The notes beneath the pieces are model-generated. The model did not search any database, was not told the origin of the DNA, and worked only from the letters and a program-made list of their open reading frames with translations. Shown here piece by piece: positions 35,282-41,708 of a stretch of DNA of 64,000 nucleotides. This DNA is from Pseudofrankia coriaricola (GTDB lineage: Bacteria > Actinomycetota > Actinomycetes > Frankiales > Frankiaceae): contig NZ_MBLO01000004.1 of NCBI RefSeq assembly GCF_001854805.1, forward strand, positions 1-64,000, written 5' to 3'. Made by a program: the position numbers and the translations under genes. The first letter of the stretch is position 1. Every line of letters starts with the position of its first letter.

Positions 35282-36931
35282 TCAGAGCTGGGCCGGGAGC
35301 ACGTGGTCGCCGACCTTGTCGGTCGAGAGGTCGAGCGAGCAGATGTAGGCATCGTGCGTCTGGCACTTGAGCATGTCCGGCCGTTCGTACTCCTGCCGGC
35401 AGACGTGGCAGGTCAGGGTCTCACCTGACGGATTGCCGTACTCGTCGTACATCGGCAGGTCGATGCCGTCGTCCGTGCGGCGCAGGTAGTACTTGCCCTT
35501 CGTGGCCACGGCCAGGATCGGTGGCAGGACGAGGGCGAGCACGATCGCGACGAGCGGGGAGTAGGGCTTGAGACCGGAGCCGAGGCCGCCGTAGAAGTCG
35601 ATGATCGAGATGCCCGCCGCCAGCACCATCGCCCCGAACCCGACCGGGTTGACGGCGTAGAGCATGCCCCGGCGGAACTCGGGCTTCAGCGGCGAGATCT
35701 TGAGCAGGTACTTGTTGAAAACGATGTCGGAGGCGACCGCGACCACCCAGGCCATGCCACAGTTGGCGTAGAAGGCGAGGATCGTGTTGAGGAAGCTGAA
35801 CATGTCGGCCTCCATCAGGATCAACGCCACGAGCAGATTGAAGCCGAGGAAGACCAGCCGGCCGGGGTAGGTCCTGGTGATCCGGGTGAACGAGTTGGTC
35901 CAGGCCAGCGAGCCGGAATAGGCGTTGGTAACGTTGATCTTGACCTGACTGATCACGACGAGCGCGACGGCGAGGGCCAGCGCGCCCCAGTGCGGCAGAA
36001 TGTCCTGGTAGATCTCCAGGAACTGGTGCACCGGCTGGTTGGCCACGCCAGCGCCGTCCGCGACGTTGGCGATGATGTAGACCGCCAGGAACATGCCGAT
36101 GATCTGCTTGATGGCGCCGAAGACCACCCAGCCCGGACCGGCCAGCACCATCGCGGTCCACCAGCGGCGCGAGTTCTCCGGCGTGCGCGGCGGCATGAAG
36201 CGCAGGTAGTCGATCTGCTCGGCGATCTGGGCGATCAGCGAGAGGCAGACGCCGGCCGCCAGGAAGACCGAGCCGAGGTCGAACCCGCCCTTGCCGTCCT
36301 GCCCGCCGTAGTCGAAGAACGCGCTGATCGAGTCGGGGTGGCGGATCAGCAGGTAGGCGAACGGCAGCACCATCAGCACGAGCCACAGCGGTGTCGTCCA
36401 GAGCTGGAGTGTGGAGAGCAGCTTCATGCCGTAGACCACGAGCGGGAAGATGACGATCGTGGAGGTCGCGTAGCCGGCCCACAGCGGGATGTGGAGGCCC
36501 AGGTTCAGGCCCTGGGCCATGATCGAGCCCTCCAGGGCGAAGAAGATGAACGTGAAGGATGCGAAGATCACGTTCGAGACGACCGAGCCGTAGTAGCCGA
36601 AGCCGCTGCCCCTGGTGATCAGGTCGAGATCCAGGTTGTAACGGGCGGCGTAGAAGGCCAACGGGAAGCCGGTCAGGATGATCACAACGGCGAAGACGGC
36701 GATGCCCCACAAGGCGTTCGTCGTTCCGTAGGAGATGCCGATGTTGGCCCCGATGGCGAAGTCCGCGAGGTAGGCGATGCCACCGAGGGCCGAGATCGCG
36801 ACCATGCCCGTGCCCCAGCGCCGGTAACTGCGCGGCGCGAACCGGAGCGTGTAGTCCTCCAGGGTCTCCTTCGCGGACCCGGTGCTGGGTTGGTGGGTTG
36901 CGGGGTCGTGCGGGGGGCTGACGGTGCTCAT
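35282..36931 (-). CDS. NCS1-family permease with C-terminal zinc finger
   Basis: The 549-residue membrane protein has about twelve helices and NCS1 features (an N-terminal YTLRFAPRSYRRWG segment, GFGYYGSVVSNVIFAS, and a ...NVTNAYSGSLAWTNSF segment) of transporters for purines, cytosine, hydantoins and related compounds. Unusually, a cytoplasmic tail of ~50 residues carries Cys508, Cys511, Cys523, His526 and Cys531 (CHVCRQEYERPDMLKCQTHD region), a treble-clef-like zinc site. It lies 182 nt downstream of a hybrid kinase gene on the same strand, suggesting transport-linked signalling. Substrate unknown. Confidence 0.88.
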   Translation of the reverse strand: MSTVSPPHDPATHQPSTGSAKETLEDYTLRFAPRSYRRWGTGMVAISALGGIAYLADFAIGANIGISYGTTNALWGIAVFAVVIILTGFPLAFYAARYNLDLDLITRGSGFGYYGSVVSNVIFASFTFIFFALEGSIMAQGLNLGLHIPLWAGYATSTIVIFPLVVYGMKLLSTLQLWTTPLWLVLMVLPFAYLLIRHPDSISAFFDYGGQDGKGGFDLGSVFLAAGVCLSLIAQIAEQIDYLRFMPPRTPENSRRWWTAMVLAGPGWVVFGAIKQIIGMFLAVYIIANVADGAGVANQPVHQFLEIYQDILPHWGALALAVALVVISQVKINVTNAYSGSLAWTNSFTRITRTYPGRLVFLGFNLLVALILMEADMFSFLNTILAFYANCGMAWVVAVASDIVFNKYLLKISPLKPEFRRGMLYAVNPVGFGAMVLAAGISIIDFYGGLGSGLKPYSPLVAIVLALVLPPILAVATKGKYYLRRTDDGIDLPMYDEYGNPSGETLTCHVCRQEYERPDMLKCQTHDAYICSLDLSTDKVGDHVLPAQL

Positions 36932-37113
36932 CGCGGGCTGCCTTTCTGCGGGCGCGGGCGCGGGTCCGAGGCCGCCGGACCAACGGGCGACGGGGGCGGC
37001 GCTGACCCCTGCCGATCAGCCAACATCCGGGCGCTAAACAACCGCCAAGCAACGGCCAAGTGCCGGCCACCGCGCAGTGGGGCGGCTTCAGCTCTGCGCG
37101 CGGGGCGACCGCT

Positions 37114-40100: not shown

Positions 40101-40374
40101 CGTCCCGGATCTCCAGGATCTCCTGAAACCAGGCGCGGTAGCGCGGCTGGCCGGTGACCACGTACGTCCGCGCCATCCGGGTCAGATCGTCAGAGGTCTG
40201 CCGCAGCTCGTAGGCCAGGCGGAGCGACTGCGACCGCCGGGCCTCGGCCTCGGCCGCCCGCCGCGTGCTGCTCTCGGCCTTCAAGCTGACCAGCAACAGC
40301 GCCGCCAGCAGGACCACACCGATGCCGACGCCGCTACGGACCAGACCGCGCAGCGACATCGGCGAGGAGTTCAC
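37114..40374 (-). CDS. Hybrid sensor histidine kinase with two receivers and HPt
   Basis: The 1086-residue membrane protein has, in order: TM1 (~13-31), a periplasmic four-helix-type sensor, TM2 (~215-237), HAMP, GAF-like domain (~300-440), HisKA with SHEIRTPMN (His near 470), HATPase_c ([27 protein letters not shown]), and a divergent receiver with an Asp in [13 protein letters not shown] canonical receiver (ADDHAVN; Asp in [12 protein letters not shown] near 903) and an HPt domain ([14 protein letters not shown] near 1034) follow. It is a self-contained phosphorelay. Its ATG overlaps the SARP-receiver gene by four bases, making that protein the likely output. Confidence 0.95.
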
Positions 40375-41708
40375 GGGTGTTCGAGCCCGCTGCCGATCCG
40401 ACCCCGGGAGACCTCCGCGCGAAGCGCGGCGATCTCAGTCCGAAGGGCTGTCTCCCGCTCAGCAGCCGACCGCCGGGCCTGGAGCGAGGCGCGCAACCGG
40501 GCCCGGAGCATCGTCGAGCTGTACGGCTTCGGCAGATAGTCGATCGCGCCCAGCTCGATGCAGCGCACCACGCTCTCCAGCTCCGGCACAGCCGACACCA
40601 TGATCACCGGGACAGCCGCCAGGACGGGATCTGCCTTGATCTCAGCCAGAGTCGCATACCCGTCCAGTACCGGCATGAGCAGATCCAGCAGAACGATGTC
40701 GAACCCGCGCGGACCGTCATCAGCGGCCCTCAGTATCTCGAGAGCCCGGTGGCCGTTCTCGGCCGTCTCCACCTCGTGACCGAGCCCGGCCACCGCGGCC
40801 GCGAGGAGCTTGCGATTGATGGCGGTGTCATCGACCACCAGGACCCTGCCCGGCCGATCCGCGGACGGCGGCTCGTGGTCCGGCGTCGCCACCTCGGCCG
40901 TGACGACCGGCACGGCCGGCGGCGTGGGCGGCTGCCAGGCCAGGACCGGGTCCTGCCGCAGCACCGCCTGCTCCAGCTCGCGCAGCCGGACGCCCGGCTC
41001 GAGCCCCAGTTCGTCGTGAAGCACCCGGCGGGTCTCGCGATAGGTGGCCAGCGCTTCCACCTGCCGCCCGCACCGGTACAGCCCGAGCATCAGTTGTGCC
41101 CGGAGCCGCTCTCGCAGCGGGTGCCGGCGCACCCGCTGTTCCAGCTCGGCAACCAGTGCGGCGTGCCGGCCCAGGGAGAGCTCGGCGTCGATCCGGTCCT
41201 CGACCGCGCCAAGGTGCAGTTCCGTCAACCGGGCCGCCGCGGCCCGGACGAACGGCGTGACGGGGACATCGACCAGTGCCGGGCCGCGCAGCATCGCCTC
41301 GGCGCGCAGCAGCGACCGCGCCGCCCGCTCGGGGTCCCCGGCGTCGAGCGCCTCCCGGCCACGCACGACCAGGTCGGCGAAAGCGTGCGCGTCCACGGCA
41401 TCGGGCTCGACGTCGAGCAGGTAGCCGGGAGACGCCGTGACCAGGACGGTCGCCGCTCTACCACGGGAACGCTCCGGTTCGAGCGCCCGGCGCAGCTGCG
41501 AGACGAAGACCTGTACCGTGGCCGCGGCCCGGGCCGGGGGCTGTTCCGGCCACAGGTCGTCGATGAGCTGATCGACCGAAACCACCCTGCGTACCCGGAG
41601 CAGGAGCGAGGCGAGAACAGCGCGCTGCTTGGGGCCACCGACGTCCACCGGCTGTCCGTCCCGGTACACCTCGACGCGGCCGAGCAGCCTGAACTCGAGG
41701 CCTGGCAT
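40371..41708 (-). CDS. SARP/BTAD regulator fused to a receiver domain
   Basis: The 445-residue cytosolic protein begins with an OmpR-like winged helix ([47 protein letters not shown]), followed by a BTAD helical domain to about residue 245 ([20 protein letters not shown]). After a Pro-rich linker comes a complete receiver ([18 protein letters not shown], phospho-acceptor in [21 protein letters not shown]) and a short coiled coil. SARPs normally have no receiver at this end. The fusion makes DNA binding directly dependent on phosphotransfer from the hybrid kinase encoded next (ATGA overlap). Confidence 0.93.

Follow-up and report, generated by a model that had tools for sequence, protein, structure and literature searches.

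Three minus-strand genes within positions 35282–41708 of a 64,000-base stretch of Pseudofrankia coriaricola (GCF_001854805.1; contig NZ_MBLO01000004.1, positions 1–64,000, analysed as a whole and here called the window) encode a SARP-type activator that ends in a receiver domain (SARP-REC), a membrane hybrid histidine kinase and an NCS1-like permease. We favour a reading in which this cassette is a portable, self-contained nutrient-sensing circuit, with a phosphorelay-driven SARP acting on the permease gene, and we put the probability of this reading at about 0.6. The three genes and their domains are confirmed at the places given in Table 1, and for SARP-REC and the kinase the gene coordinates and the Pfam matches agree with the domain order that had been read in an earlier note on this DNA. 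SARPs are known as switches of antibiotic clusters; if the reading is true, a SARP that terminates a histidine phosphorelay and serves a transporter widens the roles of the family, and provides a phospho-switchable SARP to work with.

A chance assembly of open reading frames can be set aside, as the orthologues retain the architecture at 82–90% identity for SARP-REC (six proteins; 78–91% by piece) and at 82–89% for the kinase (six proteins; 75–89% by piece), while the permease orthologues are 92–98% identical (seven proteins). The kinase begins with GTG, so that its overlap with the SARP-REC gene reads GTGA and not ATGA, as had been thought. In a survey of 58 relatives, 35 of the same family (Frankiaceae) and 23 outside it, full-length SARP-REC was found in 9 of the 35 and in none of the 23, the matches in genomes G040 and G050 being to the SARP part only. 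The kinase is present in the same nine genomes. The permease accompanies them in eight, and occurs also in G010 and G051, both of which are without the other two genes; in the ninth carrier, G028, the contig stops within the kinase and no permease was found elsewhere. Six carriers have the three-gene order on a single contig, and in a further two the kinase gene is split by a contig break. The flanks are nearly unrelated between loci: across 17 flank pieces, each at most 6 kb long and together encoding 70 predicted proteins, one DNA stretch and three protein pairs are shared. Co-occurrence, together with this shared presence amid unrelated flanks, supports the view that the three genes form one unit. 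The earlier note had proposed such a unit and had named, as the case that would refute it, an isolated fusion without a conserved neighbourhood; the genome survey addressed that case, and the cassette recurs.

In SARP-REC, Pfam places a winged-helix DNA-binding domain ahead of a BTAD domain, the order by which a SARP is recognised, and the receiver that follows has its response-regulator residues (the acidic pair D293 D294, with D342, S372 and K394) intact in all nine carriers. The best PDB relatives are AfsR and EmbR for the N-terminal part and PleD/CheY-type receivers for the C-terminal part. An AlphaFold2 (AF2) model built from 27 sequences (mean predicted local distance difference test score, pLDDT, 90; predicted template modelling score, pTM, 0.62) contains two firm domains with a disordered linker at residues 269–283, and the interdomain linker differs in length by tens of residues among the nine carriers. 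The receiver takes the place of the parts found in described SARP architectures, which comprise small, medium and large forms and forms with NB-ARC, TPR, AAA and LuxR-like parts. The main text of a SARP review (PMC10972967) never uses the word “receiver”, and among the titles and abstract openings listed, with subscription papers outside the scope, none describes a SARP-receiver type. Exact short peptide seeds, applied to 84,980 species genomes, gave 43 loci with at least six full-length SARP-REC relatives, all of them from Frankia or Pseudofrankia. A search of 72,556 plasmid records yielded a single record with at least 80% coverage of SARP-REC, from Nonomuraea. As this record encodes a SARP-receiver-LuxR protein, a SARP joined to a receiver is found outside Frankia as well, and the notion that the order is unique was abandoned. 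The genome of the window encodes further SARPs.

A pointer to the target of SARP-REC lies in the gap between the kinase and permease genes, where a block is conserved in all eight readable loci. It contains three direct repeats of 11 bp, and the 24 units of the eight loci are best fitted by the consensus CTTRGCGGTTG, which was derived from these same loci. The mean self-match of the block is 0.57 at lag 11 and 0.50 at lag 22, with all other lags from 3 to 25 at or below 0.40, and the lag-11 value of the window block was reached by none of 20,000 dinucleotide shuffles. When up to three mismatches are allowed, the 29-base repeat pattern occurs at one place in the 11.2-Mb genome, before the permease, and the reversed control at none. 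Published SARP sites are described as direct repeats 11 or 22 bp apart, the 3' repeat lying 8 bp from the -10 element (PMC10936776), and often as three heptamers (PMC10972967). In the cassette, 8 bases separate the third heptamer from TTGGCT or TTCGCT, a poor -10. In silico, the gap has direct repeats of the heptamer type, at 11-bp spacing and close to a promoter, as is characteristic of SARP targets. Because the triple repeat precedes the permease gene in all eight loci and was found once in the genome, SARP-REC probably drives the permease gene rather than antibiotic genes. The earlier suggestion that SARP-REC controls secondary metabolism runs against this, as the sole copy of the candidate box at up to three mismatches is the one before the permease, although looser boxes may exist elsewhere in the genome. 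A box ahead of the SARP-REC gene itself was also considered and rejected: in the conserved block there, the lag-11 self-match is just 0.32–0.35, barely above the other lags, and no clear repeat is seen.

The kinase carries HisKA, HATPase, an active-type receiver (REC2) and an HPt domain in one chain, the composition of a hybrid phosphorelay kinase, and its scores fall short of the curated cut-offs that define BarA and TorS. The two receiver stretches and the HPt domain that had been reported for it are present; a GAF domain had been overlooked, and the first receiver (REC1) is degenerate, being without the acidic pair and having, as read from the sequences, Arg in place of the conserved Lys. 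The HPt histidine is kept in all eight readable kinases, the kinase of G028 being cut by the contig end. The kinase of G012 (locus L070, 11228–13681) is a natural variant that has neither GAF nor REC1 but retains REC2 and HPt, which suggests that GAF and REC1 are dispensable. For the external sensor domain (39670–40287, minus strand) there is no significant Pfam match. It matches plasmid proteins in 25 records, and among the 20 matches listed the identity is 37–44% with none covering 80%. Ensifer, Azospirillum and Piscirickettsia are among the hosts of these plasmids, and several of the proteins are annotated as methyl-accepting chemotaxis proteins.

In the circuit that we envisage, the kinase would autophosphorylate on receipt of a signal, and the phosphate would travel from HisKA through REC2 and HPt to the receiver of SARP-REC, with the degenerate REC1 outside the path; for the last of these transfers, from HPt to SARP-REC, we infer the partners from their domains. 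The phosphorylated receiver might then, by way of the long C-terminal helix, dimerise or free the SARP, which would bind the 11-bp repeats and recruit RNA polymerase to the permease promoter, and the permease would import urea or another short-chain amide. The least certain step is the closing one, in which the cysteine tail of the permease would report the state of transport to the kinase, making the pair a two-protein counterpart of fusions that occur in Pseudomonadota.

Taken alone, the window permease has no match in Pfam (including PF02133), NCBIfam or the PDB sequences. In an alignment of 27 members of its family, PF02133 matches one and the cytosine-permease model nine, so that “NCS1-like” is a fair but unproven name, and none of the Pfam or NCBIfam models matched more than nine. 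Of the NCS1 permease with a cysteine-containing tail that had been described from this DNA, the CxxC/CxxH/C pattern is present, while the assignment to NCS1 rests on these weak matches of relatives. An AF2 model from four near-identical sequences has a pLDDT of 32. The Frankia tail, a putative zinc site judging by its pattern, keeps CxxC, CxxH and one further Cys, and the Cys and His residues are conserved in all four Frankia copies aligned. Four actinobacterial loci (L099, L100, L103 and L118) have tails without the cysteine pattern, of a CCVTG...ISSLALS type, in which the remainder of the tail still aligns. A search of viral contigs for relatives was empty.

The relatives of the permease in Pseudomonadota, the phylum of the Roseibium genome G350, proved to be of a different build. 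Within the 299 genomes of this set the family was found at 47 places in 42 genomes, and all 47 lie in open frames of 894–1247 amino acids (aa). In four plasmid-borne relatives, all of those tested, Pfam identifies HisKA, HATPase and one receiver C-terminal to the permease, and the regulators encoded after the fused plasmid proteins were receiver-LuxR proteins in each of the three cases tested. The fused proteins consist of the permease, a cysteine cluster at the permease-kinase junction with the pattern CxxC...C...CSLCC(S/T)L(D/E)xRCxDxCK, two hydrophobic stretches (by eye) and the kinase. In these fusions, permease family and histidine kinase work as one. STAC is not among the Pfam matches of the four fused proteins or of the window proteins, the presence of a STAC model in Pfam-A being unchecked, and in the literature, under the scope given above, no title or abstract opening describes a permease-kinase fusion. 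In Frankia, permease and kinase are encoded by separate genes and do not share the single chain of transporter-kinase transceptors. Since the Pseudomonadota relatives lie in kinase-length frames and the four tested are permease-kinase fusions, a coupling of transport to the kinase gains support by analogy, and reporting from the permease tail to the kinase (co-sensing) is a live hypothesis for Frankia. A generalisation to which we hold only tentatively, and at rather less than even odds, is that of a split transceptor: an unrecognised family of NCS1-like urea or short-amide permeases would, by means of a cysteine-rich tail, supply histidine kinases with their sensory half, in one chain with a LuxR regulator in Pseudomonadota, and as two proteins in Frankiaceae, where a receiver-bearing SARP would drive the permease itself.

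As to the substrate, the earlier proposal of purine or hydantoin transport was set aside, as the neighbourhoods of relatives point to urea and amides. Twenty of the 47 Pseudomonadota places (one per genome, from the top of the score-ordered list, more than 100 kb into the contig, G350 skipped) were compared, in 20-kb stretches, with control stretches 80 kb away. UrtABC, FmdA, AmiE or UreC was near the permease in all 20 loci versus one of the 20 controls; by gene, FmdA was found in 19 loci, UrtABC in 17, AmiE in 14 and UreC in one, and a LuxR regulator in 18. Ten annotated plasmid regions were picked by hand among the matches listed (60 of 529 records), and in eight of them the permease is beside urease, urt, formamidase or amidase genes; the two without urea or amide genes are from Arthrobacter NicSoilB11 and Streptomyces angustmyceticus. 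Stand-alone permeases were found in urease clusters of Klebsiella and Acinetobacter. Outside the cassette, 5 of 12 actinobacterial loci (3.6–20 kb each) hold urea or amide genes, two of the five being near-identical congeners. For Bradyrhizobium, the SIMBAL paper reports a second cluster of the Urt-like kind that adjoins genes for formamidase and amidase, which points to an amide as the substrate (PMC3098086). Because such genes populate the relatives' neighbourhoods, urea or a short amide appears a likelier substrate than purine or hydantoin; it is our best guess for the permease family, and is less firm for the Frankia copies.

Two of the plasmid loci have features of their own. On an Arthrobacter plasmid (L119, 2353–5250), a stand-alone permease of this family lies a few genes from genes for a PAS kinase, a response regulator and a stand-alone Hpt protein. 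On a Klebsiella plasmid (L115, 3015–6048), a transposase of the IS110 type is located between the urease beta gene and ureE, at the position expected for the alpha gene; no alpha gene is listed between the two, in a collection whose gene table is incomplete.

Several observations weigh against a circuit of this kind, or against parts of it. The shuffle test was applied to a repeat block that had already been chosen by eye, and with a looser pattern of repeats the window yields two overlapping matches against an expected 0.58, which is uninformative as 13 of 100 shuffles give as many. Compared with the fused family, the Frankia permease tail is poorer in cysteines, and in some actinobacterial relatives the tail cysteine pattern has been lost. 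The core of the Frankia kinase is 34–38% identical to four fused kinases and 43% identical to a kinase that happened to lie in a control stretch; by this small yardstick, the permease-kinase pairing of Frankia probably arose separately from the fusions, and there is no support for the Frankia kinase having descended from a fused permease-kinase. The kinase also has an external sensor domain of its own, which recurs in proteins annotated as chemotaxis receptors, and such receptors need no permease in order to sense. The features of the kinase and the reduced tail would suit a one-way two-component operon, where the kinase, equipped with its own two transmembrane helices, external domain, HAMP and GAF, senses by that external domain, SARP-REC activates the permease gene and the permease is an output without feedback. 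We regard such an operon as a serious contender, just short of an even chance. Against it, the same permease family is found in kinase-length frames at every one of the 47 Pseudomonadota places, and the tail, reduced as it is, has nevertheless kept Cys and His in the four Frankia copies aligned.

Further points bear on the substrate and on the target. Urea or amide genes were found in none of 12 Frankia stretches tested, the window included. Formamidase was not found in the window's genome, and among the nine carriers gave a weak partial match in G011 only, so that formamide as a Frankia substrate by way of FmdA is weakened. Urease is present in all nine carriers, yet also in 31 of the 35 family genomes, and therefore does not discriminate carriers. 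The Frankia permeases might instead import something else, such as a nucleobase, hydantoin, guanidine or a plant metabolite, with the urea or amide link applying only to other family members. Besides the lack of such genes near the Frankia copies, this is favoured by their 42–47% identity to the fused relatives aligned, by their closest actinobacterial relatives, in G147 (80%) and G197 (76%), which have no urea or amide genes nearby, and by relatives in G138 and G169 that adjoin a ureohydrolase-like gene as well as urease. We nonetheless think another substrate unlikely, if well worth keeping in mind, as stand-alone relatives of 52–72% identity in actinobacteria, Klebsiella and Acinetobacter are beside urease, urt, formamidase or amidase genes. 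That SARP-REC instead governs a secondary-metabolite cluster elsewhere, the permease being an incidental neighbour, would accord with the usual role of SARPs (PMC10972967) and with the other SARPs in the genome; it is improbable, given that the permease accompanies SARP-REC amid unrelated surroundings and that the candidate box was located, at up to three mismatches, before the permease alone. Least probable of all, and very unlikely indeed, is the view that the genes stay together only through synteny inherited in a narrow clade. Every carrier found belongs to the Frankiaceae, but the flanks differ in nearly all locus pairs, within the genus too, and in G005 the window's site exists in a cassette-free version while the cassette itself stands elsewhere.

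Table 1. Features of the cassette and its site in the window
Feature	Position	Strand	Basis
SARP activator with C-terminal receiver (SARP-REC), 445 aa	40371..41708	-	Open reading frame, Pfam, alignment, AF2 model
Winged helix (aa 25-97) and BTAD (aa 105-250) of the SARP	40959..41636	-	Pfam; phmmer to AfsR and EmbR structures
Receiver domain, aa 289-405, D293 D294 D342 S372 K394	40494..40844	-	Pfam, alignment
Long C-terminal helix, aa 398-439, continuing from the receiver; possible dimerisation helix	40392..40517	-	AF2 model, mean pLDDT 90
Conserved block before the SARP-REC gene; the nine loci diverge farther upstream (by eye)	41709..41765	-	
Membrane hybrid kinase, 1086 aa: transmembrane helix (TM) - about 180 aa outside - TM - HAMP - GAF - HisKA - HATPase - degenerate REC1 - REC2 - HPt	37114..40374	-	Pfam, alignment
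Canonical receiver REC2, aa 859-969 of the kinase	37468..37800	-	Pfam, alignment
HPt domain, aa 1003-1078 of the kinase	37141..37368	-	Pfam, alignment
Three 11-bp direct repeats CTTGGCCGTTG-CTTGGCGGTTG-TTTAGCGCCCG, candidate SARP box ahead of the permease gene	37028..37060	-	Conservation, self-match, shuffles
NCS1-like permease, 549 aa	35282..36931	-	Open reading frame, family alignment, weak matches of relatives
Cysteine tail of the permease: C508, C511, C523, H526, C531	35339..35410	-	Alignment
Stretch present in the window, absent at the matching place of G005	35021..42731	.	Sequence comparison

At the window's site, G005, which carries the cassette elsewhere, has the sequences of positions 35020 and 42732 separated by 11 bases. 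A single clean insertion of the cassette was considered and rejected: the whole 7.7 kb is missing from G005, but G006 has 333 bases of it (42145–42477), at a distance of about 9.6 kb from the same dehydrogenase gene. The side at 42732–42969 adjoins the dehydrogenase gene in G005 only, of the five members of the genus G001, G002, G003, G005 and G006. No recombinase was seen, and the ends of the 7.7-kb stretch are, by eye, without an obvious mobile-element signature. The approximately 1 kb at 41709–42731 holds no convincing gene. On the minus strand at 32279–34917, a gene for a 2-hydroxyacid dehydrogenase with an ACT domain overlaps one for an FAD-linked oxidase, the listed start of which is probably too far upstream; the pair is kept in G006 and G001. 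A short tRNA-Ala (ggc) of 69 bases, called by ARAGORN at 55490–55558 on the minus strand, is possibly spurious.

If permease and kinase do act together, the permease-kinase family offers a testable set of sensors, other than those of the SLC5/STAC kind, in which a transporter and a kinase together detect small nitrogen compounds. In the SLC5/STAC kind, CbrA, CrbS and RpuS join SLC5 carriers to kinases via a STAC domain, as described in a preprint (PMC13022988) and in earlier accounts (PMC7096432, PMC5715377, PMC9100948). They resemble the cassette in that a nutrient carrier is tied to a histidine kinase, and differ in having SLC5 and STAC in one chain, whereas the cassette has a carrier of another family, a cysteine tail and, in Frankia, two proteins. 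Ks-Amt5, an Amt module joined to a histidine kinase (PMC12918730), likewise links a transporter module with a kinase for a small nitrogen compound; unlike the cassette, it involves the Amt family and ammonium, and no SARP.

On the side of the activator, a Nonomuraea gerenzanensis protein (L222, 6001–7434) has a SARP followed by a receiver in one frame, as does SARP-REC, but a weakly matching LuxR helix-turn-helix comes after the receiver, and this fusion is likely to be of separate origin. EmbR of Mycobacterium shares the winged helix and BTAD with SARP-REC (phmmer), and it likewise ends in a domain for phospho-signalling. The C-terminal FHA domain of EmbR reads Ser/Thr phosphorylation, whereas the C-terminal domain of SARP-REC is itself the predicted Asp phospho-acceptor. 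Among solved structures, AfsR, a large SARP of Streptomyces, comes closest to SARP-REC in the DNA-binding and BTAD part; it, too, bears a C-terminal regulatory extension, and its target is formed by 11-bp direct repeats (PMC10936776), as in the candidate box of the cassette. The two differ in the extension, which is composed of NB-ARC/NOD and TPR in AfsR and of a receiver in SARP-REC, and in their partners: AfsR is paired with Ser/Thr kinases, while SARP-REC has a histidine phosphorelay as its predicted partner and a permease gene as its apparent target.

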